Positions 7,800 to 43,751 of a stretch of 64,000 nucleotides of DNA are shown here, one piece after another. The number at the start of each line of letters is the position of its first letter. Position 1 is the first letter of the stretch. Origin of the DNA: Armatimonadota bacterium (lineage in GTDB: Bacteria > Sysuimicrobiota > Sysuimicrobiia > Sysuimicrobiales > Sysuimicrobiaceae); contig JANXBY010000075.1 in assembly GCA_025060455.1 (NCBI GenBank), forward strand, positions 1 to 64,000. The letters run 5' to 3'. Made by a program: the position numbers and the translations under genes. The notes beneath the pieces are model-generated. The model saw only the letters and a list, made by a program, of their open reading frames with translations, was not told where the DNA came from and did not search any database.

Positions 7800-10474
7800 G
7801 CTCCGCGCTCCAGCAGCCGGCGCACGAACTCGGGGACCCGCTCCAGCGCCTCGTCCAGGCGTTGTGGGTCGCGCCCGCCGGCGTGCGCCAGCTCGGGTCG
7901 GCCACCGCCCCGACCGCCCACCAGCTCCGCCACGGGCCGGATGAGGTCAGCCGCCCGCAGGCGGTCGGTGAGATCCTTGGTCACCATGGCCACCAGCGCC
8001 ACACGCCCGTCCGAAGCGCTTCCCAGCACCACCGCGCCGCTGCGCAGCCGGTCCCGCAGCCGGTCTCCGATGGCTCGCAGGGCATCCTCCGAAAGCCCGT
8101 CAAACCGCGCGCTCACCACCCGGACGCCTTCCACGTCCTGGGCGCGCTCCAGCACCCGCTCCAGCTCTGCGGCCCCAACGCCCTTCTGCAGGGCGTCCAC
8201 CTGCCGGTGCAGCTCGCGCAGTTGCTGGAGCAGCCGGTCCACGCGGCCGGGCACCTCCTCCGGGGAAGCCCGCAGCTTCTGCGCCGCGGCCTCCAGCAGC
8301 TCCGCCTGCGTGCGGGCCCAACGGTACGCGGCCCAGCCCGCCACCGCTTCGATCCGCCGCACCCCTGCGGCCACCCCGGTCTCCTGCACGATGCGGAACA
8401 GCCCCACCTCGCTGGTGTTGCGCAGATGTGTGCCGCCGCACAGCTCCCGGCTGTAGTCGGCCACGGACACCATCCGCACCACCTCGCCGTACTTCTCGTC
8501 GAACAGCGCCATCGCACCCAGCTGCCGGGCCCGCTCGTAGGGCAGGAAGTCTACCCGCACCGGCAGGGCTTCCAGGACCTTCTCGTTCACCCGCCGCTCC
8601 ACCTGGTCCAGCTGCTCGCGGGTGAGCGGCTGCAGGTGGAGGAAGTCGAACCGCAGGCGGTCGGGCGCCACCAGGGACCCTGCCTGGCGGGCGTGCTCGC
8701 CCAGAACCTCCCGCAGGGCCTTGTGCAGCAGGTGAGTGGCCGTGTGGTGCCGCATGATCTCCCGCCGACGGAGGGCGTCTACCTCCGCCCGTACCCACTG
8801 ACCCACCCGCAGGGTCCCCTCCTGTACCACCCCGCGGTGCACCACCACCTCGCCCACGGGCCGCTGGGTGTCCTGCACCTCGAACCTTACAGAGGCGGAG
8901 GCAAGCCAGCCGGTGTCCCCCACCTGTCCGCCCGCCTCCGCATAGAAGGGCGTGCGGTCCAGCACCACCTCCACCGCGTCCCCGGGTCCCGCCGACTCCA
9001 CCCCCGCTCCGTCCCGCAGCAGCGCCACCACGGTGGCGGACGCCCGCAGGCGGCGGTAGCCCACGAACTCCGTGCGCACCCCCCGCTCCACCAGGGCCTG
9101 CAGGGACGACGGTACGTGCGCCGCCGCAAACACGGACCGGGCGCGGGCCCGGGCTCGCTGGCGCTCCATCTCCCGCTCGAACCCCTCCCAGTCCACCTCC
9201 AAGCCGGCTTCCCGTGCCACGTCCAGGGTCATCTCCTTTGGGAACCCGTACGTGTCGTAAAGCCGGAACACGTCCTCGCCCCGCAACGCGGTGCGGCCCT
9301 CGGCCCGGGCGGAGGCTACCAGCTCCTCCAGCCGCAGCAGCCCCGACTCCAGGGTACGGGCGAACCGCTCCTCCTCCGCGGTCACCACCTCCCGGATGAA
9401 CCGGCGGTGCTGCACCAGTTCCGGGTAGGCGCGGCCCATGCGGTCCACCACCACGTCCGTGACCTCCGCCAGGAAGGGGCGGACCAGCCCCAGCTTCCGC
9501 CCAAACCGCGCCGCGCGCCGCACCACCATGCGGAGCACGTAGCCGCGTCCCTCGTTGCCGGGGACCACGCCGTCGGCGACCAGGAACGCCGCGGCCCGGC
9601 CGTGGTCCGCGATCACCCGGTACGCCACCACGTCCCGCTCCCGCTCCGCCGCGGACTGCCCGGTCAGCTCCTGCACCCGATCCATCAGGGGCAGGAACAG
9701 GTCGGTGCCGTAGTTGTCCCGGGCGCCCTGCAACACCGCCACCAGGCGTTCGAAGCCCATGCCCGTGTCCACGTGCTTGGCGGGCAGCGGTTCCAGGGTG
9801 GTGGGGCCCGTGCGGTTGTACTGGATGAACACCAGGTTCCACAGCTCGAGGAAGCGGGCGCAGCCCCCGTTGACCCGGCACACATGGCCCGGTTCGTGCT
9901 GCCGGTCACAGAACCCCGGCCCGCGGTCGATGTGGATCTCGCTGTCCGGCCCGCAGGGGCCGACCTCCGCCATCTCCCAGAAGTTCTCCTTGCGGCCGAA
10001 GAACAGCACGTGGGAGGGGTCAAACCCCGGCTGGCGCAGCCAGATCTCCGCGGCCTCGTCATCCCGCGGGATCTCCCCGTACTCGTCCTCGAAGCAGGTA
10101 GCCCACAGCCGCTCGGGCGGCAGACCCCACACCTGGGTGAGTAGCTCCCACGCCCACGCGATGGCCTCCCGCTTGTAGTAGTCCCCGAAAGACCAGTTGC
10201 CCAGCATCTCGAAGAACGTGTGGTGGTAGCCGTCCCGGCCGACGTCCTCCAGGTCGTTGTGCTTTCCCGCCACCCGCATGCACTTCTGCACGTCCACCGC
10301 CCGCCGGTACGGCCGCATGCCCACCCCCAGGAACACGTCCTTGAACTGCACCATCCCGGAGTTGGTGAACAGCAAGGTGGGATCCTGGGGGACCAGGGGC
10401 ATGCTGGGCACCCGCACGTGTCCACGGTCCTCGAAGAACCTCAGGAACGTCTCCCGGATGTCGTCCGACCGCAC
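7796..10474 (-). CDS. alaS: Alanyl-tRNA synthetase
   Basis: 892 aa; VPSMPLVPQDPTLLFTNSGMVQFKDVFLG, KHNDLEDVGRDGYHHTFFEMLGNWSFGDYYK, HTATHLLHKALREVLG, ELCGGTHLRNTSEVGLF. Confidence 0.98.
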   Translation of the reverse strand: MRSDDIRETFLRFFEDRGHVRVPSMPLVPQDPTLLFTNSGMVQFKDVFLGVGMRPYRRAVDVQKCMRVAGKHNDLEDVGRDGYHHTFFEMLGNWSFGDYYKREAIAWAWELLTQVWGLPPERLWATCFEDEYGEIPRDDEAAEIWLRQPGFDPSHVLFFGRKENFWEMAEVGPCGPDSEIHIDRGPGFCDRQHEPGHVCRVNGGCARFLELWNLVFIQYNRTGPTTLEPLPAKHVDTGMGFERLVAVLQGARDNYGTDLFLPLMDRVQELTGQSAAERERDVVAYRVIADHGRAAAFLVADGVVPGNEGRGYVLRMVVRRAARFGRKLGLVRPFLAEVTDVVVDRMGRAYPELVQHRRFIREVVTAEEERFARTLESGLLRLEELVASARAEGRTALRGEDVFRLYDTYGFPKEMTLDVAREAGLEVDWEGFEREMERQRARARARSVFAAAHVPSSLQALVERGVRTEFVGYRRLRASATVVALLRDGAGVESAGPGDAVEVVLDRTPFYAEAGGQVGDTGWLASASVRFEVQDTQRPVGEVVVHRGVVQEGTLRVGQWVRAEVDALRRREIMRHHTATHLLHKALREVLGEHARQAGSLVAPDRLRFDFLHLQPLTREQLDQVERRVNEKVLEALPVRVDFLPYERARQLGAMALFDEKYGEVVRMVSVADYSRELCGGTHLRNTSEVGLFRIVQETGVAAGVRRIEAVAGWAAYRWARTQAELLEAAAQKLRASPEEVPGRVDRLLQQLRELHRQVDALQKGVGAAELERVLERAQDVEGVRVVSARFDGLSEDALRAIGDRLRDRLRSGAVVLGSASDGRVALVAMVTKDLTDRLRAADLIRPVAELVGGRGGGRPELAHAGGRDPQRLDEALERVPEFVRRLLERGA

Positions 10475-10504
10475 GACCAGACCTCCCGCCTGTGGCCGAG
10501 ACGA

Positions 10505-12163
10505 TTATAGCCGTGGCGCGGCGGCCCGAGGCCGACGGTGCGCCCACCACCGGCGCAGGCGCTCCCACCAGCCCCCGGTGCGGGCCCCGGCCTCCGCCCG
10601 CTCCGCTTCCCAGTCCGGCTCCGCGGCCACCTCCAGCACCTCCTCCGGACCCCACCGGTAGGCGGCGACGGAGGCCGCGGGTGCCTCCCCCACCTCCTCC
10701 ACCCTGTTCGCCCCAGCGGTCTCGAACTGCTCCACGTGCAGCCCCTCCTTCGGCACCACCCGCAGGGCCTTGCCCAGCTGCTCCTCCGCGCGGCGCAACC
10801 ACGCCCCGTCCCGCACCAGCTCCGCGTGCACCAAGGGGTGCACCCGCAGGACCACCACCGACTCCGGCCGCGCCGCGCACAGCCTGCGCAGCTCGCGGCG
10901 GATCCGGTTCGCCATGGTTTCCGGGGACAGCACCCGGCCGCGGCCGTCGCAGTACGGGCAGGGCATCCGCAGCACCGCCTCCAGGTCCTGGTGGACCCGC
11001 TTTCGGGTGATCTCCACCAGCCCCAACTGCGTGAGATCGATCACGTGGGTCTTGGACCGGTCCCGGCGCACCGCCTCCTGCAGGGCCCGAAGCACCTGCT
11101 GCCGGTGCCTTTCGTTGTCCATGTCGATGAAGTCCACCAGGATGATCCCGCCAATGTCCCGCAGGCGGATCTGCCGCACCACCTCCCGGGCAGCCTCCAG
11201 GTTGGTGTGCAGGATGGTGGTGGCCAGGTCCCGGTCGCCCACGTACCGGCTGGTGTTCACGTCCACCACGGTGAGCGCCTCCGTCCGGTCCACCACCAGG
11301 GTGCCGCCGGAGGGCAGCCACACCTTCCGCCGCAGGGCGGTCTCGATCTCCTTCTCCACCCCGAAGTGCTCGAAAATGGGCTCGCTGCCCCGGTACAGCT
11401 CCAGGCGGTCCCGCAGGTGGGGCGCGTAGGATCCCACCAGGTCCACCAGCCGCTCGTACTCCCGGGGGGAGTCCACCACGAACCGCTCCACCTCGCCCGT
11501 GAACAGGTCGCGGGCGACCCGCCGCAGCAGGCGGAGGTCCTGGTACAGGAGGGCAGGGGCGCGGCTGGTGCGGGCGCGCTCCACCACGCGGTTCCACACG
11601 CTGAGCAGGTAGCGCAGGTCGTCCTGGAGGTCCTTCTCCGTGGCCCCCTCCGCCGCGGTGCGGACGATCAGCCCCATCCCCTGGGGGCGCAGGCGCTGCG
11701 CTACCTCCCGCAGCCGCCGCCGCTCGCTGTCGCTGTCGATCTTCCGCGAAACCCCCACGTACTGCACCGTGGGCATGAGCACGAGGTAGTGAGCCGGGAT
11801 GGCGATGTAGGTGGTCACCCGGGCCCCCTTGGTGCCCATGGGTTCCTTGGTGACCTGGACCAGGATCTCCTGACCCACCCGCAGCTTCTGCTGGATCCCG
11901 CCCTGACCGATGGCGTCTTCGAGCTCTTCGCCCCCGATCCGCTGGCTGCGCACGTCCCCCACCTGCAGGAAGGCGTTGCGCTCGAGCCCGATGTCCACGA
12001 AGGCGGCATCCATTCCCCGGAGGACGTTGGCCACCCGGGCCTTGTACACGTTGCCCGCCAGGGGCTCGCCACGCTCGATGAACAGGTTCACCACCTGCCC
12101 GTCCTCGAACACCGCCACCCGGGTCTCGAAGGGTTCCACGTTCGCCACGATCTGCCGCCGCAT
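10505..12163 (-). CDS. rng: Ribonuclease G/E family protein
   Basis: ATG 12163; GNVYKARVANVLRGMDAAFVDIGLERNAFL; VVDRTEALTVVDVNTSRYVG; DIGGIILVDFIDM; CPYCDGRGRVLS. Confidence 0.93.
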   Translation of the reverse strand: MRRQIVANVEPFETRVAVFEDGQVVNLFIERGEPLAGNVYKARVANVLRGMDAAFVDIGLERNAFLQVGDVRSQRIGGEELEDAIGQGGIQQKLRVGQEILVQVTKEPMGTKGARVTTYIAIPAHYLVLMPTVQYVGVSRKIDSDSERRRLREVAQRLRPQGMGLIVRTAAEGATEKDLQDDLRYLLSVWNRVVERARTSRAPALLYQDLRLLRRVARDLFTGEVERFVVDSPREYERLVDLVGSYAPHLRDRLELYRGSEPIFEHFGVEKEIETALRRKVWLPSGGTLVVDRTEALTVVDVNTSRYVGDRDLATTILHTNLEAAREVVRQIRLRDIGGIILVDFIDMDNERHRQQVLRALQEAVRRDRSKTHVIDLTQLGLVEITRKRVHQDLEAVLRMPCPYCDGRGRVLSPETMANRIRRELRRLCAARPESVVVLRVHPLVHAELVRDGAWLRRAEEQLGKALRVVPKEGLHVEQFETAGANRVEEVGEAPAASVAAYRWGPEEVLEVAAEPDWEAERAEAGARTGGWWERLRRWWAHRRPRAAAPRL

Positions 12164-12177
12164 GGGCCCTCCGCGTT

Positions 12178-13311
12178 TCAGAACAGGATCTTGGGCCTGC
12201 GCACCGCCACGCTCAGCACCAACCCGACCGCGGCCAGTTGGGTCACCAAGGCAGTCCCCCCGTACGACACGAAGGGCAGGGGGATGCCGGTGGGTGGGGC
12301 CAGGCCCACGGTCATGCCCACGTTCACCAGCACGTGGAACGCCACCATGCCGGCCACCCCCACGCACAGGTAGCTCCCGAACGCGTCCCGGGCGGTGGAG
12401 GCAACCCGGAGCACGCGCAGAAGCCACACCCAGAACAGCACCAGCACCCCCACGGTCCCCACAAAGCCCAGCTCCTCACCGACCACCGAGAACACAAAGT
12501 CCGTGTGCTGCATGGGCAGGAACTGCAGGGTGTTCTGGGTCCCCGCGAACAGGCCCTTGCCCCACATGCCCCCGGAGCCGATGGCGATTTTGGACTGGAT
12601 CAGGTTGTAGCCTGCGCCGAGAGGGTCCTGGTTCGGGTCCAGGAACGCCAAAATCCGGGCCCGTTGGTACGGCTTCAGGAGGGGCCAGGCGGCCGGCGCC
12701 AGCAGGACCCCTACGGTCACGAGTCCCGCCAGGTGTCCGCGTGGCACGCCCGCAGCCCACAGCATCGCCAGGAGGATGGCCACGAACACCAGCGCGCTGC
12801 CGAGGTCGGGCTGCAGGAACACCAGGAGCATAGGGGGCAGGGTCAGCAGCAGGGACGGCGCCAGCTCCAACAACCGCTGAGGCGGGGTCTGGCGGCGGCT
12901 CAACGACCACGCCAGCGCCACCACCAACCCCAGCTTTGCCACCTCCGAAGGCTGCACGCTCACCGGACCCACCGACAGCCACCGCTGGGCACCGAGGGCG
13001 GTGCGGCCCACCAGGTCGGTGAGCGCCAGCAGGGCTAACGCAGCACCGTACACCAGCTTCCACGCCTGCCCCAGGGTCTGGTACGGCACCGCGGACGTAC
13101 CCACCAGCGCCAACATCCCCAGGGCCACGTGCGCCAGCCGTGGCCTCAGCAGGCCCAGCGGCCGGTCGGGCGTGGTGGTGGCGCTCGCCACCGCCACCGT
13201 GCCCAACGCCACCAGCGCCAGGGTGCACCCCACCAGCACCCAGTCCACGTGGCGCAGCCGCCGTCTCAAGGGACGGGGGTCGCCGGTCCCGTACGTCACC
13301 GACCCGCCCAT
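12178..13311 (-). CDS. rodA: Rod shape-determining protein RodA (SEDS)
   Basis: VQPSEVAKLGLVVALAW...LQPDLGSALVFVAILLAM...GLFAGTQNTLQFLPMQHTDFVFSVVGEELGFVG; adjacent to mrdA. Confidence 0.93.
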   Translation of the reverse strand: MGGSVTYGTGDPRPLRRRLRHVDWVLVGCTLALVALGTVAVASATTTPDRPLGLLRPRLAHVALGMLALVGTSAVPYQTLGQAWKLVYGAALALLALTDLVGRTALGAQRWLSVGPVSVQPSEVAKLGLVVALAWSLSRRQTPPQRLLELAPSLLLTLPPMLLVFLQPDLGSALVFVAILLAMLWAAGVPRGHLAGLVTVGVLLAPAAWPLLKPYQRARILAFLDPNQDPLGAGYNLIQSKIAIGSGGMWGKGLFAGTQNTLQFLPMQHTDFVFSVVGEELGFVGTVGVLVLFWVWLLRVLRVASTARDAFGSYLCVGVAGMVAFHVLVNVGMTVGLAPPTGIPLPFVSYGGTALVTQLAAVGLVLSVAVRRPKILF

Positions 13312-15080
13312 CCCGCCTGCGGCCGCGCGGCCTGCTGGCCGGCCCACCACCGGGAAAGGACCGCCTGGGCGATGGGCGCCGCGCTCAGCCCGCCCCGGTA
13401 CCCGTGCTCCACCAGCACCACCACCACGATCCGTGGGTCTTCCGCGGGGGCGTAACCGGCAAACCAGGCGTGCGGCCGGCCCCGGGGCACCTCCGCGCTA
13501 CCCGTCTTGCCTGCCACCCGCAGCCCCTCCACCCGGGCCGCCCTCCCCGTTCCACGCTCCACCACCGCCTCCAGGCTCCTGCGCAGCGCCCGCAGGGCCT
13601 GGCCGGACAGCTGCAGCCGCCCCTGCACCACGGGGGAGAACGTTCGCACCACCTGGCCTTCCGGAGACAGCACCGCCCGAGTCACCCGCGGCTGCAGGAG
13701 GGTGCCGCCGTTGGCCACTGCGCTCATGGCGCGGGCCACCTGAATGGGTGTCGCGAGGACGAACCCCTGCCCGATGGCCATGTTGAGGGTGTCGCCCGGG
13801 TACCACGGCTCGTGCCACACCCGGCGTTTGTAGTCGGCGTCCGGGACCACCCCTGCCGCCTCCGGCGGCAGGTCGATTCCTGTCGGCTGCCCGAAGCCCA
13901 GCTGCCTCGCGTAGCGCGCCAGGGCGTCCGGGCCCAGGCTGCGGCCGAGGGTCCAAAACATGACGTTGCATGACTGTGCCACGCCCGTGGCGAAGTCCAC
14001 CACCCCGTGGGCCTGGAGGTCGCGGAACACCCACCGGCCCAGCTGCAGGGACCCGGTGCACACGAACCGGGAGGAACCGGCGGCGCGGCCCTCCTGAAGT
14101 GCCGCCAGCCCGGTGACCACCTTGAACACGCTTCCCGGCTCGTAGGCACTGGCCGTGGCCCGGTTCATCAGCGGGTTGCGGCGGTCCCGGCTGAGCTGCT
14201 GCCAGTCCCGCTCCGGGATACCCGCCGCGAACGCGTTCGGGTCGAAGGACGGGCTGCTGGCCATGGCCAGCACCTCCCCGGTCCGCGGGTCCATGGCCAC
14301 CACAGCCCCCGGCCGATCCCCGAGCTGCCGCTCCGCCTCCTGTTGCAGCTCCCAGTCCAGGGTGAGCACCAGGGTGTTGCCCGGCCTGCCCGGTTGCTCG
14401 CGCAACACCCGCAGCGGCCGGCCGGCGGCGTCCACCTCCACCACGTGCTCACCGTCATCGCCGCGCAGGACCACGTCGTACGACCGCTCCACGCCCGCCT
14501 TGCCGACCAGGTCTCCCGGGCGGTAACCGCGGGGCCGCAGCGCCTCCAGCTCTTCCTGGCTTACCTCCCCCAGGTAGCCGAGGACGTGAGCGCCCACGCT
14601 CCCGAAGGGGTACACGCGTACCGGCTCCGCCTCTACCTGCACCCCCGGAAGGTCCTCCCGCCGCTCCTCCAGCCACGTGACCACCCGCATCCCCACGTCC
14701 CGCCGCACCCTCACCGGTTCGTAGGGGCGGCGCCGTCCCCGCTCCCACCGTGACCACACCTCCTGCTCCAAAACGCCCAGGGCCCGGGCCAGCTCGGCAG
14801 CCACACGGTGGGGATCCTTCACCTCCATGGGCAGCAGGGACACGGAGAAGGCCGGGCGGTTGACCACCAACGGCGTGCCCCGCCGGTCCAGGACCAAGCC
14901 CCTGGGAGCGGTGACGCGGTGTACCCGCAACCGGTTGCTGTCCGCCAGTTGCGCGTAGTAGTCCGCCTGAAGCACCTGCAGCTGCCACAGCCGCAGCCCC
15001 AGGACGGCCAGGGCCGCGGTCAGAGTCACCGCCAGGGAAGCCAGCCGCGCGGAGAGGTGGACCGGCCTTTCGGGTTCCAT
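13296..15080 (-). CDS. mrdA: Penicillin-binding protein 2
   Basis: TAPRGLVLDRRGTPLVVNRPAFSVSLLP; YEPGSVFKVVTGLAAL; GKTGSAEVPRGRPHAWFAGYAP. Confidence 0.93.
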   Translation of the reverse strand: MEPERPVHLSARLASLAVTLTAALAVLGLRLWQLQVLQADYYAQLADSNRLRVHRVTAPRGLVLDRRGTPLVVNRPAFSVSLLPMEVKDPHRVAAELARALGVLEQEVWSRWERGRRRPYEPVRVRRDVGMRVVTWLEERREDLPGVQVEAEPVRVYPFGSVGAHVLGYLGEVSQEELEALRPRGYRPGDLVGKAGVERSYDVVLRGDDGEHVVEVDAAGRPLRVLREQPGRPGNTLVLTLDWELQQEAERQLGDRPGAVVAMDPRTGEVLAMASSPSFDPNAFAAGIPERDWQQLSRDRRNPLMNRATASAYEPGSVFKVVTGLAALQEGRAAGSSRFVCTGSLQLGRWVFRDLQAHGVVDFATGVAQSCNVMFWTLGRSLGPDALARYARQLGFGQPTGIDLPPEAAGVVPDADYKRRVWHEPWYPGDTLNMAIGQGFVLATPIQVARAMSAVANGGTLLQPRVTRAVLSPEGQVVRTFSPVVQGRLQLSGQALRALRRSLEAVVERGTGRAARVEGLRVAGKTGSAEVPRGRPHAWFAGYAPAEDPRIVVVVLVEHGYRGGLSAAPIAQAVLSRWWAGQQAARPQAGWAGR

Positions 15081-21359: not shown

Positions 21360-22340
21360 TCAGTGGCGCCGGGACACCACGAACTCCGTGAGGGCGGCCA
21401 GGCTGTCCCGCTCCGGCCCGGGAGGTAGGGTGTCCAGCAGCTGGAGGGCCCGGTGCGCGTGCTGCCGCGCCACCTCCAGGGCGTAGGCCAAAGACCCAGA
21501 GGCCTCCAGGGCTTGCCGCAGGGGCTCGAGATCCCCTGAGCGGATCCACGCCTCCAGCCGCCGGCGCCCTGCTTCGTCCGCGGTCCGCAGGGCGTGGATC
21601 AACGGCAGCGTGACCTTGCCGCCGCGTACGTCGCTGCCGATGGGCTTGCCGAGGACTTCCGGGTCGCTGGTGAGGTCGAGGGTGTCGTCGGTGATCTGGA
21701 ACGCCACGCCCCAGTGAAGCCCGAACGCTCCCAGCCGCTCCACCAGCTCGCCCTCCGCCCCGCCCACCAGGGCACCCCCGGCGCACGCGGACGACACCAG
21801 CTGCGCGGTCTTGCCCTCCACGATGGCGAAGTAGATGGACTCGTCGGTGTGCGGAGTGTTCCCGTACTTGATCTGCAGGAGCTCCGCCTGGCTCATGCGC
21901 ACGGTGGCGAACGCCACCCGGCTGGCCACGTCGTCCCGGCCCGTACGGGAGAGCAGGTGGAACGCCTTGCTGAACAGGTAGTCTCCGAGCAACACCGCCA
22001 CGTGGTTGCCCCACCGGGCATTGGGGGTGGCGTGTCCCCGCCGGCGATCCGCCTCGTCGATGACGTCGTCGTGGATCAGGCTGGCCACGTGGATGAGCTC
22101 CACCGCGGCGGCCAGCAGGTCCCGGTGCGCTCCGCCTCCTCCGGCAACCCGGGCGCACAGGAACGCCAGGGCCGGGCGCACCATCTTCCCCCGGGTCTGC
22201 AGCACGTGCGACACCAACTCCATCAGGAAGGGGTCGTGGGCAGCCAGCTCCTGGTGCAGGAGGTGCTGGAGGCGGTCCAGGTCCTCCCGTACGGGAGCAT
22301 ACGCGGAGGCCAAGGCCGCGTCCGCGGCCACCAAGGTCAT
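21360..22340 (-). CDS. Polyprenyl synthetase family protein
   Basis: LIHVASLIHDDVIDEADRRRGHATPNARWGNHVAVLLGDYLFSKAF; GVAFQITDDTLDLTSDPEVLGKPIGSDVRGGKVTLPLI. Confidence 0.95.
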   Translation of the reverse strand: MTLVAADAALASAYAPVREDLDRLQHLLHQELAAHDPFLMELVSHVLQTRGKMVRPALAFLCARVAGGGGAHRDLLAAAVELIHVASLIHDDVIDEADRRRGHATPNARWGNHVAVLLGDYLFSKAFHLLSRTGRDDVASRVAFATVRMSQAELLQIKYGNTPHTDESIYFAIVEGKTAQLVSSACAGGALVGGAEGELVERLGAFGLHWGVAFQITDDTLDLTSDPEVLGKPIGSDVRGGKVTLPLIHALRTADEAGRRRLEAWIRSGDLEPLRQALEASGSLAYALEVARQHAHRALQLLDTLPPGPERDSLAALTEFVVSRRH

Positions 22341-22882
22341 GGTCGCCGGCCCAGTCGCCGCACGTACTCCACCAGCGCCCAGATCTGGTCGTCGGGCAGC
22401 TGGCCGAACGCCGGCATCCCGCTCCGCCGGGCGGTGTTTGCGAGGCCGTTCTTGATCACCCAGTGGGTCGCACCTACGGGCATGCGCTCGTGGAAGGCCC
22501 GGTAGTGGAAGTTGAACGGCTTGGGGTTGAGGGCGGCTCCCGCGGGTCCGTCTCCGCGCCCTTCAGGCCCGTGGCACACCGCGCACAAGGTGTCGTACTG
22601 CGTCTTAGCCTGCGCCAGCATGGCGTCGGTGACCGGCCGCGGAGGTTGGTCGTCCCGGGCCTCCTCGGGCACCACCTCGAGGATGGCCAGGACGACCTCC
22701 GACCCGTCCGGAGCTGCCGCAGTGCCCACGGACACGCCCTCCACGTTCCGGGCCACCAGCTGCACCTCCGGCTGCACCAGCCCGCCCGCCACGAACAGGT
22801 AAACCAGCGCCCACACGGGGAGCAGCACGTACAATGCCAGCAACCAACGGGAGGGCCGGACGGACGTGGTTTCTTCGGCCAT
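22337..22882 (-). CDS. Membrane-anchored monoheme cytochrome c
   Basis: N-terminal TM (LLALYVLLPVWALVYLFVAGGL), CAVCH, GMPAFGQLPDDQIWALVEYVRRL. Confidence 0.88.
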   Translation of the reverse strand: MAEETTSVRPSRWLLALYVLLPVWALVYLFVAGGLVQPEVQLVARNVEGVSVGTAAAPDGSEVVLAILEVVPEEARDDQPPRPVTDAMLAQAKTQYDTLCAVCHGPEGRGDGPAGAALNPKPFNFHYRAFHERMPVGATHWVIKNGLANTARRSGMPAFGQLPDDQIWALVEYVRRLGRRP

Positions 22883-22890
22883 AGCGCCTC

Positions 22891-23352
22891 CTACCGCAGC
22901 GTGAGCAGGTATGCCACCAGGTCAGCCACCTCCGCCTCGGACAGGTACCGGTAAGGCGGCATCCCCCCCTTTCCGGAGCGGAGCAGCGTTCGCAGGTCCT
23001 GCGCGGAGGTCCGGGCCGCAACGTGGGTCAGGTCCGGGCCAAGGCGCAACCGGCCCACCAGTGCCGGGTCTTGGCCCGCGTACTGAGCCGGGGAGGAAGC
23101 TTCCCCGATGTCGCCCGCGCCCCGCACCATTCCGAAGCGGGCCTCTACCGCCCGGACTTCCTGCGTGTGGCAGACCGCGCACCCTTCCCGCACGTACACC
23201 CACCGACCCCGCGCGGCTTGGTGCGACAGCGGGGTCGCCCGGGCAGCACGCACCGCGGGATCCAGGGCCGGGAGCAGCACCGAGGCCACGAACCCGCACA
23301 GCACCGCAGCGGTCACCAGCCTCACCACAGCGCCCACGGAGTCCTTCAACAA
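22891..23352 (-). CDS. CcoO-like (cbb3 oxidase subunit II-like) monoheme cytochrome c
   Basis: GRWVYVREGCAVCHTQEVRAVEARFG...LGPDLTHVAARTS matches the CcoO pattern YVREGCYNCHSQ...RTGPDL. Confidence 0.8.
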   Translation of the reverse strand: MLKDSVGAVVRLVTAAVLCGFVASVLLPALDPAVRAARATPLSHQAARGRWVYVREGCAVCHTQEVRAVEARFGMVRGAGDIGEASSPAQYAGQDPALVGRLRLGPDLTHVAARTSAQDLRTLLRSGKGGMPPYRYLSEAEVADLVAYLLTLR

Positions 23353-23379: not shown

Positions 23380-24774
23380 CTAGGAACCCGCCACCGCGGC
23401 CAGCTCCTGCTCCGCGGCAGGCACCGGCTGCCCGGAGTCCGCCGTCAGGAAGACGTTCCACCCGAACACCGCGTGCCCCATCCACGCGGCCAGCAGCCCC
23501 GTGAAGCTCAGCGCCACGAGCGGCCGGACGGCCTGCAGTGCGTGCGCGAAGGGGACGGTGCCCGTGGCCCACACCGCCCCCTGGCTCAGGCCTGCCACCA
23601 TCAGGGAGCTCACCGCCAATGTCCACCCGGCCACACCCAACCACAGGTGCCGCCAGGCCAGCCCCCGGCTGGCCAGCGCCCGTCCCAGGGCGTGGGGCAG
23701 GAGGAGGTACGCGCAGCCCACAGCCACCGCACCGCAACCCCCGACGAGCAGGAGGCGCACCGCCTCCTCCCAAAGGGACATGGACACCATCCGGCTTGGA
23801 CCCGCCAGGGACGCCACCGCCTGCGCAACTACACCTCCGAGCAACGCCAGCCACCCGGCCACGGTGAACGCCACGCCCGGGTGGTCTCCGAGGATGCGCC
23901 ACTGCCCCTCCAGGGAGCGCACCGCGCCCGTGACCAGGGTGGCCACGGGCAAGACCAGCAGGCCGCACGCCACCGCTCCTACCGTCTGAACCCAGAAGGG
24001 GACCGGACCCCACACGAACTGCCCGGGCCCCGCGAGGGCCCCGAAGCTGGCGAGCCCGACCACCGCGGCAAATCCCAGCCCCTGCGACAGCCCTGGCCTC
24101 CCCGTCAGCGCCGACAGCACATACAGGGTCACCCCCCCTGCCACGGGGACCGCCCACAGCCACAACAGCCCCGCCTGCAGGAAGGCCTGGCTCAGGGCGT
24201 CCAGCACCCCGGAGTAGGGATTGTCGAAGGGCCAGAACAGCCCCTTCCCCAGGACCAGGACCAAGGGCAGCCCCGCGAAGCCTGAGGCCACCAGGGCCAG
24301 GGCGGGGTCCCTGCGAGGCGCCCGCGCGAGGGTGCTCCGGACTACCCAGTACAGGAGCAGCGCACCCGCCAGCCGCAACAGGTCCACGGGCCAGGGGGCT
24401 TCAGCGAACAGGCGGCCCCGCGTCCAGCCCGCGGAAAGCCACCACCAGCTCAAGAGCTGGGCGGCGGTCCACAGCCACAGGGCCAGGTTGGCGAGCGGCT
24501 CGCTCCACAGCCCCTCCCGGTCGCCCTGACCCACCACGCGCAGCGCCGTCCCCACCAGGAGGTGGGACAACAGGCCGAACACCCACAGGTCGGCGGCCAC
24601 GGCCACCACCCGGCCGTGGGACGCCCACGGGAGGTCCGCCAACAGCGACGGCCACGCCCTCTGCGCCGCCACAAGCCCTTCGTACGCCAGGGCCAAGACT
24701 CCCCACACGGTCCCCGCGTACAGGAACCTCCGCACGGAGCTCCACCGCTCGTCGGTGAACATCCACGCCAGCAC
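23380..24774 (-). CDS. CcoN-like (cbb3 oxidase subunit I homologue) integral membrane protein apparently lacking heme/CuB ligands
   Basis: GTG 24774 or ATG 24762. CcoN-like C-terminal landmarks: YLLLPHALGRALASRGLAWRHLWLGVAGWTLAVSSLMVAGLSQGAVW and VRPLVALSFTGLLAAWMGHAVFGWNVF. No HH pair and no HVH motif. Confidence 0.75.
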   Translation of the reverse strand: MLAWMFTDERWSSVRRFLYAGTVWGVLALAYEGLVAAQRAWPSLLADLPWASHGRVVAVAADLWVFGLLSHLLVGTALRVVGQGDREGLWSEPLANLALWLWTAAQLLSWWWLSAGWTRGRLFAEAPWPVDLLRLAGALLLYWVVRSTLARAPRRDPALALVASGFAGLPLVLVLGKGLFWPFDNPYSGVLDALSQAFLQAGLLWLWAVPVAGGVTLYVLSALTGRPGLSQGLGFAAVVGLASFGALAGPGQFVWGPVPFWVQTVGAVACGLLVLPVATLVTGAVRSLEGQWRILGDHPGVAFTVAGWLALLGGVVAQAVASLAGPSRMVSMSLWEEAVRLLLVGGCGAVAVGCAYLLLPHALGRALASRGLAWRHLWLGVAGWTLAVSSLMVAGLSQGAVWATGTVPFAHALQAVRPLVALSFTGLLAAWMGHAVFGWNVFLTADSGQPVPAAEQELAAVAGS

Positions 24775-24797: not shown

Positions 24798-24914
24798 TCA
24801 GGCCTCCGCCACCAGGCCGAAGGCCGCCACGAACAGCAACAGCGCGAAAAACAGCAGGTAAAACAGGGCGTACCACAGGTAGGTCTTCCACCGTCGGGGG
24901 CCGAACCGGGTCAC
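24798..24914 (-). CDS. Tiny single-TM protein (38 aa)
   Basis: GTG overlapping the mvhD-like stop (GTGA); MTRFGPRRWKTYLWYALFYLLFFALLLFVAAFGLVAEA*. Confidence 0.55.
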   Translation of the reverse strand: MTRFGPRRWKTYLWYALFYLLFFALLLFVAAFGLVAEA

Positions 24915-25330
24915 TGTTTCCCTCCAGATCCGCGCAGCCGGTCCACGAAGTCCGCCACCGCTTGGAGGAACTGCTCCCGCTCGTGCAGCCCGTACGCGAA
25001 GAAGGCAATCCGCTCAGGGTCCACCTTCTGCCGGCTCAACCGCTTGCGGAGCTGGTCGATGCGGTCTTCCATGATCCAGTTGCCCTCCCGGTTCAGGCAG
25101 TCGCCCATGGGGCAGCCACACACGAAGGCGCCTGCGGCGCCACTGCGCAGGGCCAGCTCCAACCACCCCGGCTTCACGAACCCCGAGCACGGCACCCGGA
25201 TCACGGTCACGTGGGGCATCCCCACCACGGTGTCGTCCGGGTTCAAAAGCCCCTCACTGCGCACCGCCCAGTCGCACAGGAACCCCACCACCCGGGGCTG
25301 CGTTTCCATCCGCTCCGGTGCTGCCGCCAT
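24911..25330 (-). CDS. MvhD-like hydrogenase iron-sulfur (delta) subunit family protein
   Basis: VVGFLCDWAV...VTVIRVPCSGFVKPGWLELALRSGAAGAFVCGCPMGDCLNREGNW. Confidence 0.9.
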   Translation of the reverse strand: MAAAPERMETQPRVVGFLCDWAVRSEGLLNPDDTVVGMPHVTVIRVPCSGFVKPGWLELALRSGAAGAFVCGCPMGDCLNREGNWIMEDRIDQLRKRLSRQKVDPERIAFFAYGLHEREQFLQAVADFVDRLRGSGGKQ

Positions 25331-25339
25331 GGCTCCTCC

Positions 25340-26515
25340 TCACGAGGCCACAGGGGCCGCGGCCCCTGCGCCCCGCCGGATCCGCTGCTGCACGTCCTTG
25401 TCCAGCATCCTCGGCAACTCCAGGGCCTCGAACGGGCAGGCGCCGATACAGATCCCGCACTCCACGCACCGGGAGTCCACCACCACCGCCAGGAGCTTTC
25501 GGTTGGCCGCCGCCCGGCTCTTTCCCGGGTAGGGGCTCGGCACCATGTAAATGGCGTTGTACGGGCAGTCGTAGTAGCACAGCTCGCAGCCCGTGCAGTT
25601 CTCCTCCACCACCACCGCCTGGCCCAGGGCTCGCAGCCCCCGCTGTTCGGGGGTCTCCCGCAGGGTGTAGGGGATGACCATGCCATACACCACCAGCGCC
25701 ACCACCAGGGCCAGGGCCCAGCCCGGGGCTGTCCACCGGGCCAGCACGTACGGCCACAGGAAGAACCAGTCCACCTGGAACCCTTCTGGGGACGCCCCCG
25801 GCTGCGCGGGCGGGCCGCTGGCGGCCGGGAGCGCACTGGCCAGGATGAACAGGAGCCCCAGGCTGAACAGCACCCACACCGCGGGCGGCCAGATCTTGGG
25901 GTGGCGCAGGCGCACGTAGTGCCACCACAGGAGCACGTACAGGGTCATGGCGGGACCGATGTGGAGGAACAGAAACCGCGGCAGGGTCGTGTCGCTTACC
26001 CCCGGGCCGCCCAGGAACACCCGTTCCAGCCAGCCGCCGATGAGGGGGACCGACCGCAGGGCCTGAGTGGTGAGGCTGGTGAGCAGCTGCGAGCGCTCGT
26101 CCCACACCAGCAGGTAGCCGGTGAACCCCGCGAACCCGGACACCACCAGCAGGAACATCCCGGACAGCCACTGGCTGTCCCGCGCCTCCCGGTAGCGGTC
26201 GGTGAACCAGTTCCTGAACAGGTGCAGCAGGATGGCCACCAGGTAGGCGTCCGCGGCGTACCGGTGGATCCCGCGGAACACCACTCCGTAGGGCACGTGG
26301 TGGGTGAGGAACTCCACGGAGGCGTACGCGCCCTCCAGGCTGGGCTCGTAGTACAAGAAGATGAGGATCCCGGACACCACGAGGATGGTCAGGAACAGGT
26401 TCGCGAGCCCGCCGGTGTAGTAGAGGGGGTTGAAGTCCTGGGGCAGGACGCGGTTGACCCACGTGTCCAACCGCAGGGTGGCGCTCTGCAGGGCCAACAG
26501 CAGCCGCCGGTACAC
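25340..26515 (-). CDS. Cytochrome b fused to C-terminal 2x[4Fe-4S] ferredoxin domain
   Basis: Heme b ligand pairs GIHRYAADAYLVAILLHLF and LFLHIGPAMTLYVLLWWHY; CTGCELCYYDCP and CVECGICIGACP motifs. Confidence 0.92.
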   Translation of the reverse strand: MYRRLLLALQSATLRLDTWVNRVLPQDFNPLYYTGGLANLFLTILVVSGILIFLYYEPSLEGAYASVEFLTHHVPYGVVFRGIHRYAADAYLVAILLHLFRNWFTDRYREARDSQWLSGMFLLVVSGFAGFTGYLLVWDERSQLLTSLTTQALRSVPLIGGWLERVFLGGPGVSDTTLPRFLFLHIGPAMTLYVLLWWHYVRLRHPKIWPPAVWVLFSLGLLFILASALPAASGPPAQPGASPEGFQVDWFFLWPYVLARWTAPGWALALVVALVVYGMVIPYTLRETPEQRGLRALGQAVVVEENCTGCELCYYDCPYNAIYMVPSPYPGKSRAAANRKLLAVVVDSRCVECGICIGACPFEALELPRMLDKDVQQRIRRGAGAAAPVAS

Positions 26516-26516
26516 C

Positions 26517-26717
26517 CTACTCCTCCGCGGTCAGGCGCGCCTTCCGGAACAGCACCACGATGGCCGCGTACAGCACCAGCAACACCCCCATGGCCCCGGA
26601 GGCCACCAGGCGCCGGTCGAACCACTCGCCGTACACCATCAGCGCCACGCACGCCAGGGCCAGCACCGCCAGGAACCCGGCCAGCGCCACATACCAGCTG
26701 CTGCGATCCTCGGTCAC
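26517..26717 (-). CDS. Small two-TM membrane protein (66 aa) in respiratory operon
   Basis: GTG 26717; VTEDRSSWYVALAGFLAVLALACVALMVYGEWFDRRLVASGAMGVLLVLYAAIVVLFRKARLTAEE; overlaps the neighbouring gene end. Confidence 0.6.
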   Translation of the reverse strand: MTEDRSSWYVALAGFLAVLALACVALMVYGEWFDRRLVASGAMGVLLVLYAAIVVLFRKARLTAEE

Positions 26718-26983
26718 GGCCGCCTCCCTCCTCGCTGGGCCGCCAGCCAGCGGTCGTACGCGCGCACGGGCCTGCGCACCCGGCCGGCCTGCCGATCCGC
26801 GGCGTACAGGAGGTAGCCCGCCCACGCCACGGCGCCGGCCAGCACCGCCAGCCAGGCCGCGACCACCGCCCACCGCGCGGGCTCGGGGTCAGCCCAGGCC
26901 AGCCGTGCCCCCTGCCAGGCGCCGTGGAATCCTACCACCGCCAGGGCGAAGGCCAGCCAGAAGCGCACCACCAACGTCTTCAC
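26714..26983 (-). CDS. Small two-TM membrane protein (89 aa) in respiratory operon
   Basis: GTG 26983 overlapping the cytochrome b stop; VKTLVVRFWLAFALAVVGFHGAWQGARLAW...AVVAAWLAVLAGAVAWAGYLLYAADR. Confidence 0.6.
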   Translation of the reverse strand: MKTLVVRFWLAFALAVVGFHGAWQGARLAWADPEPARWAVVAAWLAVLAGAVAWAGYLLYAADRQAGRVRRPVRAYDRWLAAQRGGRRP

Positions 26984-28128
26984 CCCGCCGCCGCCCGGGC
27001 CGGCGCCGCCCGCGGCGCCGGGGCCGGAGCAGCGGCCTCCGCCAGCTTCCTGCGCCGCCGGTACCGGAACTCCAGCACCAGGCCCAGGGCCAGGGTGGCC
27101 GCGGTGACCAGCAGCACCACGTGCGGGTCGCGCCCGATCACCGCGATGTTGAACATGATGAGGGCGGTGAACACCAGGAAGTACACCAGGGCCATGACCC
27201 CCACCACGGTGAAGAAGGGGCGTTCTGCCGGCCGGCGGCCCTTGCTCCGGTCCAGGAAGGGCACCAGCATGCCGTACGCGATCAGCAGCCCGGGCCCCAG
27301 GCCTGCCCACAGGGGCGGCGTGTACTTCACGTACTGGTACAGGGCCAGGAAGTACCAGTCGGAGAGGATCGGAAGGGGCGTACGGTTGGGGTCCGCCCGG
27401 CGCCCCATCTCCGCAGGGAACACGTAGCTGGTAACCACCAGCATTAGGGTCAACACCACCAGGGCGGTGGGGGACAGCACGAATCGCCGCCGCCGGGTGA
27501 AGTAGAAGTAGATCTCTGCCGCCACCAGCAGCAGGGCGGAGATGCCAAAGTGGATGGCGTAGAACCGGGTCAGGGTGCCCTGACCCTCCGCGGGTCCGCC
27601 CAGGAAGGCGAAGGCGATGGCGCTGCCGAACCGCGTCTGCCCGATCACCGGCAGCTCGTCCAGGTACACGGCCACGGTGAGCACCACCTTCGCGGCCCAG
27701 AAGGCCCGCTGGTTCCAGATCAGCAGGTACCCCGTGAGGCCCGAGATCATGGCCAGCACCAGGGACCCGAACAGGATCATCCACGAGAGTTCGTTGGGCC
27801 GCTTATACTCGCCGAGAAAGTACATGCGGTAGATCCGCAGGGTGATGGCGAGGATGAGCATATCCGCGCCGTACTTGTGCACCCCGCGGATCAGCCAGCC
27901 CAGCGGGACCTCCTTCTGAATCCGCAGGATGGAGTTGTACGCGCCGTGGGTCGTGGGCTCGTACCAGATCATGAGGAGAATCCCGCTCACCACCACCGCG
28001 ATCCACGAGAAGTACACGATCTGCCCGAGGATGTAGAGCGGGTTGTCCTGGCGATCCACCTGCGTCTCGTCGAACAGGTCCAGCTTCTCCTTGCGCTCCC
28101 GGAACCACTCCCGCAAGCGGTCCCACAT
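26980..28128 (-). CDS. Cytochrome b (b6/bc-type), apparently single-b-heme variant
   Basis: LIRGVHKYGADMLILAITLRIYRMYFLGEYKRPNELSW; LTRFYAIHFGISALLLVAAEIYFYF; SDWYFLALYQ in place of PEWY. Confidence 0.9.
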   Translation of the reverse strand: MWDRLREWFRERKEKLDLFDETQVDRQDNPLYILGQIVYFSWIAVVVSGILLMIWYEPTTHGAYNSILRIQKEVPLGWLIRGVHKYGADMLILAITLRIYRMYFLGEYKRPNELSWMILFGSLVLAMISGLTGYLLIWNQRAFWAAKVVLTVAVYLDELPVIGQTRFGSAIAFAFLGGPAEGQGTLTRFYAIHFGISALLLVAAEIYFYFTRRRRFVLSPTALVVLTLMLVVTSYVFPAEMGRRADPNRTPLPILSDWYFLALYQYVKYTPPLWAGLGPGLLIAYGMLVPFLDRSKGRRPAERPFFTVVGVMALVYFLVFTALIMFNIAVIGRDPHVVLLVTAATLALGLVLEFRYRRRRKLAEAAAPAPAPRAAPARAAAG

Positions 28129-28140
28129 GACCCGTCTCCC

Positions 28141-28785
28141 TCAGGCGATCCCGCCTGGCTCCGCGCCTGTGACCACAATGACGCCGTCCCGGATCTCGTA
28201 GGTGAAGTAGCGGGGCGGCCGGGGCGCAGGTCCTGAGAGCACCCGGCCGGGCTGCTCTCGGTCCGCGGGGTCGTAGATGGAAAGGTGGCACGGGCAGGCC
28301 ATCAGCCCGTGCCGCCGGTCCTCCGGCGGCACGTACCCCCCGTATCCTGCGGTCACCTCCCGCCAGTTCGGCACGTAGTTGAAGATGCAGCCCAGGTGGG
28401 GGCAGATCCGCGAGAAAATGACGACGTCCGTGGGTTCCCGGCCGCCCTTGTAGCCGGGGAAGGCCAGCTTCCAGGGCAGCTTGATGGCCACCCCGGGAAC
28501 CGTGGCCGCTTTCGCCAGCTCGGGGGTGTACTGCGGGTACTTCTGGGTGAACACGAAGAACTTGCTGGACCACGGCTCCCGCAGTTCCTCCAGGGTGGCG
28601 ATGGGCAGCGGTTCGCCCTTGGGCAGGTCGCCCTCCGCTAGATCCGGCGGCACCTTTCCCTGGGGGACCCCCAACCCTGGTTCCAGGTTGGGCTTGAGGT
28701 AGCGCAACACCGGCGCCAGGAACGCGGCCAATCCGCCCAGCACCGGGACTGCGCTCAAAACCTTGAGGAACGCCCGACGGTCCAC
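28141..28785 (-). CDS. Rieske [2Fe-2S] protein
   Basis: Twin-arginine start MDRRAFLKVLSAVPVLGG; ICPHLGCIFNYV and ACPCHLSIYD cluster motifs. Confidence 0.94.
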   Translation of the reverse strand: MDRRAFLKVLSAVPVLGGLAAFLAPVLRYLKPNLEPGLGVPQGKVPPDLAEGDLPKGEPLPIATLEELREPWSSKFFVFTQKYPQYTPELAKAATVPGVAIKLPWKLAFPGYKGGREPTDVVIFSRICPHLGCIFNYVPNWREVTAGYGGYVPPEDRRHGLMACPCHLSIYDPADREQPGRVLSGPAPRPPRYFTYEIRDGVIVVTGAEPGGIA

Positions 28786-28795
28786 CGGTTGCCTC

Positions 28796-29698
28796 CTACC
28801 GCAGGTCCTGGGGCGGCGTGTACACGAACGTCCACAGGTACTCTACCACGGTCCAGATCTGGTCCGGGGACAGCCTGCTTGCGTACGCGGGCATCAGCTC
28901 CACGCCGCGCCGCTGCACCCCCTCCGCGATCTTCTGGTACAGCTCCGTGGGCTTGCGGTAGGCCATCCAGTCGCGGTCGGTGAAGATCCCCGGCCCCACG
29001 CCCCGCGCCCACGTCCACACCTGTTCCCGGATCCGCGCGGCCTCCGGCCCGTTCCCGTCCCCCTGGACCCCGTGGCAACTGGCGCACATCTGGTTGTAGA
29101 TCCTCCGCCCCTGAGCCAACCGCTCGCGGCTGGTGGTCCGGCTCCACTCCCAGAACAGCACGTCCCAAATCTGTTGGTCAGACAACCGCGGCTCCCCCCC
29201 GTCCACCGCTCCGTACGCCGGGTGCTGGAAGCCCGGCATGGCGGTGTGGGGCCGTCCCCGGGCGATGGTCTCGAACAGGGCAAACGGAGCGTTCAGCCGC
29301 ATCTGGTCCAGGTTGTTAAACCGCGCAGGCCGGCTCGGCAGCGGCTCGGACTTCGGGTGGATGCGGAACAGGCTCAAAAAGTCGGTGTAGGGGTTTTTCT
29401 CCGGTGCCGTGAGCTGCTCGGCCATGGAGCCGTCCCCGCGCCCGTCCGGGCCGTGGCAGACCGCGCAGCGTGCGTCGTAGATCTTCTTACCCTCGTCGGC
29501 GTTGGGCTTGCGGGGCATGAAGTTCATGCGCACCGCAAACCCCTCGAGAGGCTGGTACGCCTCCCGCGTGGGGGTGCTGACCCGCACGTACGGCTGACAG
29601 CCCGTCAGGGCCAGCAGGGCCAACGCCAGGAGCAACCCGCCGCGGCCCGCTGGGGGGGACCGCCGGCCACCGAGAGGCCCGGCTCGGCGTCCGCGCAA
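28796..29698 (-). CDS. Diheme cytochrome c lipoprotein
   Basis: Lipobox LALTGC; two CXXCH motifs (CAVCH, CASCH). Likely TTG start with AAGGAGG upstream. Confidence 0.9.
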   Translation of the reverse strand: MRGRRAGPLGGRRSPPAGRGGLLLALALLALTGCQPYVRVSTPTREAYQPLEGFAVRMNFMPRKPNADEGKKIYDARCAVCHGPDGRGDGSMAEQLTAPEKNPYTDFLSLFRIHPKSEPLPSRPARFNNLDQMRLNAPFALFETIARGRPHTAMPGFQHPAYGAVDGGEPRLSDQQIWDVLFWEWSRTTSRERLAQGRRIYNQMCASCHGVQGDGNGPEAARIREQVWTWARGVGPGIFTDRDWMAYRKPTELYQKIAEGVQRRGVELMPAYASRLSPDQIWTVVEYLWTFVYTPPQDLR

Positions 29699-41409: not shown

Positions 41410-42667
41410 ACAGCCCCCGGAGGCGGCGGGCCTCCACGATGCGCTGCACGCCGAGGCAGTAGGCGCCCGTGCGCAGGTCCACGCCCACCTGCTCCGAAAA
41501 GTCCAGCACGTCCCGGAAGGCCTGCCGCATCTTGTCCTCCAGGCGCGTCCGCACCTGGTCCTCCCGCCAGAAGTAGCCGTACCGATCCTGGACCCACTCG
41601 AAGTAGCTCACCACCACCCCACCCGCGTTGGCGAGGATGTCGGGGACCACGAACACTCCCCGCCGGCGCAGGATCTCGTCCGCCTGAGGGGTGGTGGGGC
41701 CGTTGGCGCCCTCCACCACCACCTTCGCGCGGATGGCGTGCGCGTTCGCCTTGGTGATCTGGTTCTCGATGGCCGCGGGTACCAGCAGCTCGCAGTCCAG
41801 CTCCAGCAGCTCCGCGTTGGTGAGGGTCCGGGCGCCCGGGTAGCCCACCACGCTGCCCGTGCGGTCCCGGTGCTCCCGCACCAGTCGGGGCACCAGCCCC
41901 TCGGGGTGGAAGATGCCCCCGTGTACGTCGCTCACCGCCACCACCCGGGCGCCCGCCTCATGCAGCAGCCGTGCGGTGTGGAAGCCCACGTTGCCGAAGC
42001 CTTGGACCACCACCCGCGCCCCCTCCACGGGCAGGCCCGCGTGCGCGAAGGCCTCCCGCGCCACCACCAGGATCCCGCGCCCCGTGGCCTCCTCCCGACC
42101 CCGGGAGCCGCCCAGGGGGATGGGCTTCCCGGTCACGGTGCCCGGCTCCAGGTAGCCGCGCTTCATGCAGATGGTGTCCATGACCCACGCCATCACCTGG
42201 GCGTTGGTGCCCACGTCCGGCGCGGGGATGTCCTTGTCGGGGCCGATGATGTCGAAGATCTCCGCGGTGTACCGGCGGGTGATGCGCTCGAGCTCCCGGT
42301 GCGACAGCCGCGCGGGGTCGCAGGCCACCCCGCCTTTCCCACCTCCGAAGGGGATGTCCACCACCGCGCACTTGATGGACATGTAAGCGGCCAGGGCCTT
42401 CATTTCGTCCAGGTTCACGTTGGGGTGGTAGCGCAGCCCACCCTTGCACGGGCCACGGGCGGTGTCGTACTGCACCCGGTAGCCCGTGAACACCTCCACG
42501 CGGCCGTCGTCCATCTCCACGGGCAGGGAGACGATGACGCACCGCCGCGGGTGCTTCAGGGGCCGGCTGGTGGACTCGTCGTACCCGAGGATGGCCGAGG
42601 CCCGGTCGATCCAGCGGCAGACCGACTCGAAGGGGTTCTCCTGCTCCGCCTCCAACACCACCGACAT
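41402..42667 (-). CDS. Glu/Leu/Phe/Val dehydrogenase
   Basis: GPCKGGLRYHPNVNLDEMKALAAYMSIKCAVVDIPFGGGKGGV; VVVQGFGNVGFHTARLLHEAGARVVAVSD. Confidence 0.96.
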   Translation of the reverse strand: MSVVLEAEQENPFESVCRWIDRASAILGYDESTSRPLKHPRRCVIVSLPVEMDDGRVEVFTGYRVQYDTARGPCKGGLRYHPNVNLDEMKALAAYMSIKCAVVDIPFGGGKGGVACDPARLSHRELERITRRYTAEIFDIIGPDKDIPAPDVGTNAQVMAWVMDTICMKRGYLEPGTVTGKPIPLGGSRGREEATGRGILVVAREAFAHAGLPVEGARVVVQGFGNVGFHTARLLHEAGARVVAVSDVHGGIFHPEGLVPRLVREHRDRTGSVVGYPGARTLTNAELLELDCELLVPAAIENQITKANAHAIRAKVVVEGANGPTTPQADEILRRRGVFVVPDILANAGGVVVSYFEWVQDRYGYFWREDQVRTRLEDKMRQAFRDVLDFSEQVGVDLRTGAYCLGVQRIVEARRLRGLYA

Positions 42668-42687
42668 CCCGCACCCCCGCCCGCGCT

Positions 42688-43035
42688 TTACGAACCGGAC
42701 TTGGTCTTCGCCTCCCGTTCTTTGGTCTCCGCCTCCGGACGCCGGCTGCGCACGGACGCCACCGCCGCCCGGTCCGCCCGCACCCGCACGTTGGGCGCCA
42801 GCTCAAGGGTCAACACGTCGTCCTGTACGTCCGTGATGGTGGCGTGCAGCCCGCCTACGGTGACCACCCGGTCTCCCTTCCGGAGCTTGCTGAGCATCTC
42901 CTTCCGCCGCTTCTGCTGCTGCTGCTGGGGGCGGATCAGCAGCACGTAGAACATCACCAGCAGCAGCGCCCACACGATCAGGGTAGGAAGCAGGCTTGCC
43001 TGCCCCTGCGCACCCTGCGCCTGGAGAAGGACCAT
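42688..43035 (-). CDS. yajC: Preprotein translocase subunit YajC
   Basis: MFYVLLIRPQQQQQKRRKEMLSKLRKGDRVVTVGGLHATITDVQDDVLTLELAPNVRVR. Confidence 0.93.
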   Translation of the reverse strand: MVLLQAQGAQGQASLLPTLIVWALLLVMFYVLLIRPQQQQQKRRKEMLSKLRKGDRVVTVGGLHATITDVQDDVLTLELAPNVRVRADRAAVASVRSRRPEAETKEREAKTKSGS

Positions 43036-43174
43036 CGCGCCTCCTTCAGCTCTGGTATCGGCCCCAGCCGTCCTCCTTCCACCCCACGGCGGCCTTTCCC
43101 TCGCTGGCGCCCACCGCCGGACCGGCGTTCGGAGGCCGGCTGCAGTATAGCACGCCTTCCGGGGTTGGCCGGCC

Positions 43175-43202
43175 GCGTGCGTATAATCGCGTGCGTATAA
43201 TC
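43175..43202 (+). repeat. Perfect 2x14-bp tandem repeat, each copy containing TATAAT
   Basis: GCGTGCGTATAATC|GCGTGCGTATAATC upstream of the lone plus-strand ORF. Confidence 0.85.
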
Positions 43203-43232
43203 CCGTTGGAACACCGGAGGCGGGAGGTTGAG

Positions 43233-43748: not shown

Positions 43749-43751
43749 CCG

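Follow-up and report, generated by a model that had tools for sequence, protein, structure and literature searches.

The closest described relatives of the locus studied here are the cbb3 oxidases, the C-family of heme-copper oxidases, in which the catalytic subunit CcoN has ligands for heme b, heme b3 and CuB and a cross-linked tyrosine, and in which the heme domains of CcoO and CcoP sit on the periplasmic face. Six histidines count as the signature that defines heme-copper oxidases, and a genome with matches to CcoN and CcoO is taken to be cbb3-respiring. Loss of heme ligands from a subunit is known from another terminal-oxidase family, CydAA' of the cytochrome bd-family oxidoreductases, which resembles the case described below in its ligand loss but has an unrelated protein fold. 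Coupling of a Rieske/cytochrome b (R/b) unit with CcoN and CcoO is found in the solved structures of bc1-cbb3 supercomplexes (PDB 8smr, 6xkw), in which CcoN is an active oxidase. Our search, which covered the open-access literature, found no description of a ligand-free CcoN or of a cluster of R/b, FlpD and CcoN genes.

The window, i.e. the whole 64,000-nucleotide stretch of DNA that was analysed, combines features of both systems (Table 1). Its CcoN homologue (CcoN') is followed by a CcoO homologue (CcoO') and a cytochrome c gene in the order known from cbb3 oxidases, and coupling to a Rieske/cytochrome b unit, as in the supercomplexes, is suggested here by gene content. The locus differs from cbb3 operons in that these genes are embedded in an R/b-FlpD operon, that the sole CcoP-like protein is mono-heme and that CcoN' lacks the ligands for heme b, heme b3 and CuB as well as the cross-linked tyrosine. 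It differs from the supercomplexes in the same absence of cofactor ligands and in that its R/b unit has ferredoxin motifs and an FlpD protein. The gene order from the diheme cytochrome c to the polyprenyl synthetase is identical across the orthologous loci, with the order of one locus (L035, family f6) visible only from the cytochrome b-ferredoxin gene on, where its contig begins. In every Sysuimicrobiota-type operon examined, a polyprenyl synthetase gene follows downstream.

Table 1. Features of the operon around CcoN' and codons of the former ligand positions (residue numbers of former ligands as in CcoN of 3mk7).
Feature	Position	Strand	Remarks
Diheme cytochrome c	28796..29698	minus	two Cytochrom_C stretches (Pfam)
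Rieske iron-sulfur protein	28141..28785	minus	NCBIfam Rieske models E about 1e-8; no Pfam match
Cytochrome b	26980..28128	minus	
Small membrane protein of R/b operon	26517..26873	minus	start uncertain; no Pfam match; conserved by synteny
Cytochrome b (N-terminal half) fused to two 4Fe-4S motifs	25340..26515	minus	
FlpD/MvhD-type electron-transfer protein	24911..25330	minus	Pfam FlpD E 2e-24
38-aa single-TM peptide	24798..24914	minus	C-terminal FGLVAEA
CcoN', CcoN homologue without heme/CuB ligands	23380..24774	minus	464 aa; GTG start at 24774, stop at 23380-23382
A60 codon	24595..24597	minus	former low-spin heme ligand H60, helix II
A201 codon	24172..24174	minus	former CuB ligand H207
G245 codon	24040..24042	minus	former cross-linked tyrosine Y251
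G251-Q252 codons	24019..24024	minus	former CuB ligands H257-H258
V339-R340 codons	23755..23760	minus	former heme ligands H345/H347 (HxH)
CcoO', membrane-anchored mono-heme cytochrome c, FixO family	22891..23352	minus	Pfam FixO E 2.9e-12
Mono-heme cytochrome c, membrane-anchored, CcoP/cytochrome 579-like	22337..22882	minus	
Polyprenyl synthetase	21360..22340	minus	

That the gene encodes a CcoN homologue had been proposed in a first-pass annotation by eye, and the profile searches bear this out. CcoN' matches Pfam COX1 with 90.5 bits (cut-off 34.8; E 1.4e-25; 413 residues covered) and the ccoN model TIGR00780 over its full length (85.5 bits; E 3.6e-24), the latter score lying far below the equivalog cut-off of 583 bits that marks a cbb3 CcoN. 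The solved CcoN chains 9g6b and 3mk7 match almost the entire protein (E about 1e-26 to 1e-24). Orthologues begin at the same position, nearly all of them with ATG. An AlphaFold model computed from five input sequences (pLDDT 82, pTM 0.86) has about 12 long membrane helices, and the PDB entries that match it best are CcoN chains of cbb3 oxidases (TM 0.84, to 3mk7; E 5e-18), followed by NO reductases and other heme-copper oxidases. The structure prediction suggested in the annotation thus came out as a CcoN fold; an unrelated fold, which the annotation had named as a possible objection, was rejected on these matches. By sequence homology and predicted fold, then, CcoN' is a member of the superfamily of heme-copper oxidase subunits I in both architecture and descent; judged by the ligand histidines expected of a functional oxidoreductase, it falls outside the superfamily.

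The ligand positions, numbered here as in CcoN of 3mk7, align cleanly apart from a one-residue gap at the HxH motif in the MAFFT alignment. At these positions the window protein has H60 replaced by A, H207 by A, Y251 by G, H257 by G, H258 by Q, H345 by V and H347 by R, so that none of the six ligand histidines is left, as the first reading of the sequence had suggested. The cross-linked tyrosine of C-family oxygen reductases is gone as well. That reading was mistaken in one pairing: the counterpart of the motif WWxGHNAVGF (WWYGHNAVG) is not FWPFDNPYSG, which is the preceding periplasmic loop, but AFLQAGLLW (residues 197-205). Its conclusion of ligand loss is unaffected by this correction. For the window protein alone, the contrast between the ligand and tyrosine columns (0 of 7 kept) and other invariant columns (16 of 34 kept) is modest (Fisher p 0.03), and we therefore place the weight on the loss common to eight orthologues and on an intermediate form described below. 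All seven residues are absent from the window protein and from seven others that are 45-78% identical to it, and all seven are retained by each of 24 reference homologues (among them 3mk7) that come from other bacteria. Position 60, for example, is A, G or S in the eight orthologues and H in the 24 active homologues, and the tyrosine position is occupied by G or A in 8/8. Sequencing or assembly error was rejected as a source of the loss, which recurs in eight separate assemblies, all of them free of frameshifts.

It might be argued that CcoN' still binds heme or copper through unusual ligands, and two histidines, H376 and H411, are indeed present in seven of the eight orthologues. We regard this as barely credible: no histidine or cysteine is invariant among the eight, no conserved pair is positioned to ligate a core heme, and the former ligand positions vary freely between small or unlike residues. 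The window protein has seven histidines, none of them at a ligand position, and a replacement set elsewhere in the fold was rejected since none is invariant across the orthologues. As far as the alignments can tell, CcoN' has lost the residues that would ligate low-spin heme b, heme b3 and CuB, and reduction of O2 or NO by this protein is excluded because no recognisable metal site remains.

The eight ligand-free proteins come from two families (f1 and f3) of one phylum, probably Sysuimicrobiota/CSP1-3; the genus HRBIN32 has been placed in CSP1-3 (PMC12416667), and CSP1-3 has been named Sysuimicrobiota (PMC11604079). Orthologues of CcoN' occur in 9 of 43 genomes of this phylum, including 7/7 of the window's own family f1, and most families of the phylum are without it. 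A protein of family f6 (L014; 39% identical to the window CcoN') is intermediate, having kept two of the seven residues, H60 and H207, along with 29 of 34 other invariant columns, and having lost the remaining five. It is sister to the eight ligand-free proteins with a support of 100/100 in a tree whose program flagged the unusual letter make-up of these eight sequences. In a tree of the cytochrome b-ferredoxin protein, f6 groups with f4 and not with f1 and f3, which, if descent was vertical, means that an ancestor shared by these families already had the module and had undergone the first five losses; horizontal transfer of the module may be an alternative. In a profile search of 384 genomes, none of the best matches outside the phylum whose sequences were compared was a degenerate relative, and a motif scan of the genomes of 85,462 species yielded only four loci (L020, L021, L022 and L023), of which L020 and L021 correspond in identity to the orthologues of genomes G001 and G003 and L022 is that of Bacterium HR32.

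CcoN' is under purifying selection that is less tight than that on the neighbouring genes. Comparison with the closest relatives (Nei-Gojobori) gave dN/dS values of 0.22-0.23 for CcoN' and 0.18-0.21 for CcoO'; the values were lower for the cytochrome c (0.08-0.10) and lowest for cytochrome b and the Rieske protein (0.05-0.06). CcoN' and CcoO' are thus at 2-5 times the values of the R/b subunits. The dN/dS comparison proposed in the first-pass annotation accordingly gave the expected purifying selection (about 0.23). Together with the absence of CcoN' from most families, the faster evolution of CcoN' and CcoO' relative to the R/b subunits implies that CcoN' is dispensable on long time scales. 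One could go further and see in it a decaying relic without important function, on its way to being lost together with CcoO' as in the sister families: the module is absent from 34 of the 43 genomes, CcoN' evolves faster than its neighbours, and its cytoplasmic loops and core are relaxed. This is unlikely in our view, for no copy has a frameshift or an internal stop, the gene is present in all seven f1 genomes examined and spans two families whose copies are 45% identical, its dN/dS is about 0.23, and its periplasmic loops are as conserved as those of active enzymes. The lineage has kept CcoN' and the surrounding gene cluster long after the ligands were lost.

Where the constraint lies is informative. 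When loop classes were assigned by eye from the established topology of CcoN, the degenerate clade had a conservation of 0.66 in periplasmic loops, 0.50 in the helices and the rest and 0.40 in cytoplasmic loops. Shifting the labels in a circle gave a periplasmic contrast as extreme in 3 of 454 cases. The active cbb3 proteins are nearly flat by comparison (0.63 periplasmic, 0.62 transmembrane, 0.57 cytoplasmic). The first-pass annotation had offered two roles for the protein, a scaffold and a proton or quinone module. For the latter, i.e. reuse of CcoN' as a proton/ion channel or quinone-binding module conformationally coupled to the R/b-FlpD complex, one can cite the preserved 12-helix core with a few invariant charged residues (K177, E125, D131, D192) and the FlpD and ferredoxin motifs, which suggest a complex reaching low-potential cytosolic carriers. 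The cytoplasmic loops are, however, the least conserved part of the protein. Moreover, T215, Y223 and Y317, which are assigned to the K-channel as polar membrane residues of a proton path in cbb3 oxidases and are invariant in active homologues, are lost in 8/8. K177 and D192 are located within or beside periplasmic loop 5, which is conserved. We consider a channel or quinone module quite improbable and favour the scaffold. Since the constraint concentrates on the periplasmic face, where the heme domains of CcoO and CcoP sit in cbb3 oxidases, it points to docking of c-type cytochromes as the preserved property, away from the path of protons from the cytoplasm.

The putative docking partners have kept their heme motifs. 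CcoO' combines its FixO match with an N-terminal membrane anchor, CXXCH and a distal methionine (MPPY motif), in line with the earlier claim of an adjoining CcoO-like subunit with an intact heme motif. CXXCH is kept in CcoO' in 9/9 operons examined, the heme methionine in all but one (L036), and the CXXCH of the operon's cytochrome c in every operon examined. In the exception, CcoO' of G008 (L036, 9009-9485), CXXCH is present and RVHGYGFF stands in place of the MPPY motif with the usual distal methionine. CcoN' and CcoO' always occur together in the operons examined, which would also suit a protein that acts mainly as an assembly or stability factor for the membrane-anchored cytochromes c and not as a lasting electron-transfer subunit. 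A protein of 12 helices whose docking face is as conserved as in cbb3 oxidases is easier to explain as a permanent subunit, and we hold a mere assembly role to be highly improbable.

On the other side of CcoN' lies the cytochrome b-ferredoxin gene, which 38 of the 43 genomes of the phylum carry. The single-TM peptide ending in FGLVAEA is conserved with the R/b-FlpD operon of the phylum, also where CcoN' is absent. A second cytochrome b with two 4Fe-4S motifs, together with FlpD, lies in Rieske/cytochrome b operons of two phyla (24911-28785 in the window; 10362-14761 in locus L095). The pair suggests an electron link from the quinone pool to cytosolic low-potential carriers, as judged from the motifs.

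Taking these results together, we propose, at a probability of roughly 65%, that CcoN' is a heme-free pseudo-oxidase kept as a membrane scaffold that docks c-type cytochromes to the Rieske/cytochrome b-FlpD complex. Its 12 helices would hold CcoO' and the cytochrome c on this complex; electrons from quinol would reach the c hemes by way of the Rieske protein and the diheme cytochrome c and would then leave for soluble carriers and a separate CuA-type A-family oxidase or another acceptor, with no O2 reduction inside CcoN'. That CcoN' physically assembles with the R/b subunits we infer from gene order only, and this is the weakest step of the scaffold reading.

Other candidates for O2 reduction are encoded in the genome, among them an A-type COX1 that has its full set of ligands and lies next to a CuA subunit. 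A functional CcoN/CcoO paralogue was not found elsewhere in the genome, in which there is one FixO match in all, and a role of CcoN' as accessory to such a paralogue was rejected for this reason. The other COX1 matches in the genome are two with A-type ligands and a tandem resembling the B/NOR family. The tandem consists of adjacent COX1-superfamily genes behind a CuA-type subunit (G000, contig C69, 40856-42151 and about 42495-43934; L003, L005). The first gene has FAHPSQQ where HPEVY is usual and lacks the cross-link tyrosine; the second has diverged strongly, with a Pfam COX1 score of 32 bits that lies below the cut-off, and has WGAGHALQ and TAHYHA motifs and no HH. The tandem is possibly B-family NO-reductase-like.

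The R/b-ferredoxin-FlpD part of the operon is found in most of the phylum, with varying content in the slot between FlpD and polyprenyl synthetase that CcoN', CcoO' and the cytochrome c occupy in the window. At the loci L088-L094 and L096 this slot holds a cupredoxin (type-1 copper motif C-x4-H-x4-M) or nothing: families f2, f4 and f5 have the cupredoxin, and f7 as well as one genome of f5 have an empty slot. The cupredoxin that takes the place of these genes in sister families agrees with an electron-exit role of the slot. In another phylum, the locus L095 (genome G149) has the same gene set, with CcoN, CcoO(P), diheme cytochrome c, Rieske protein, cytochrome b, the small protein, cytochrome b-ferredoxin and FlpD families, and here the six histidines and the tyrosine of CcoN are all present, unlike in the window. 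It differs further in that CcoO is fused to another cytochrome c and in that the CcoN genes lie upstream of the Rieske gene instead of downstream of FlpD. By gene content, L095 shows that a cluster of active CcoN/CcoO with R/b-FlpD survives, and the window operon would have originated from one that joined an active CcoN/CcoO to this R/b-FlpD complex.

The steps of such a conversion are still visible in the active cluster of the other phylum, the intermediate with two of seven residues, the ligand-free form and the slot with a cupredoxin or nothing. We therefore think it rather probable that a complete catalytic subunit of a heme-copper oxidase was converted stepwise and now serves a Rieske/cytochrome b-FlpD electron-transfer complex as a stable scaffold without cofactors, which makes it a pseudoenzyme of this superfamily. 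The CcoN' family passes the Pfam COX1 cut-off and yet cannot, by its residues, reduce O2 or NO. If the scaffold role is true, the protein body of CcoN would have a structural value in respiratory complexes apart from catalysis, and the graded natural series of intact, two-of-seven, ligand-free and absent genes would trace the passage of a respiratory enzyme into a pseudoenzyme.
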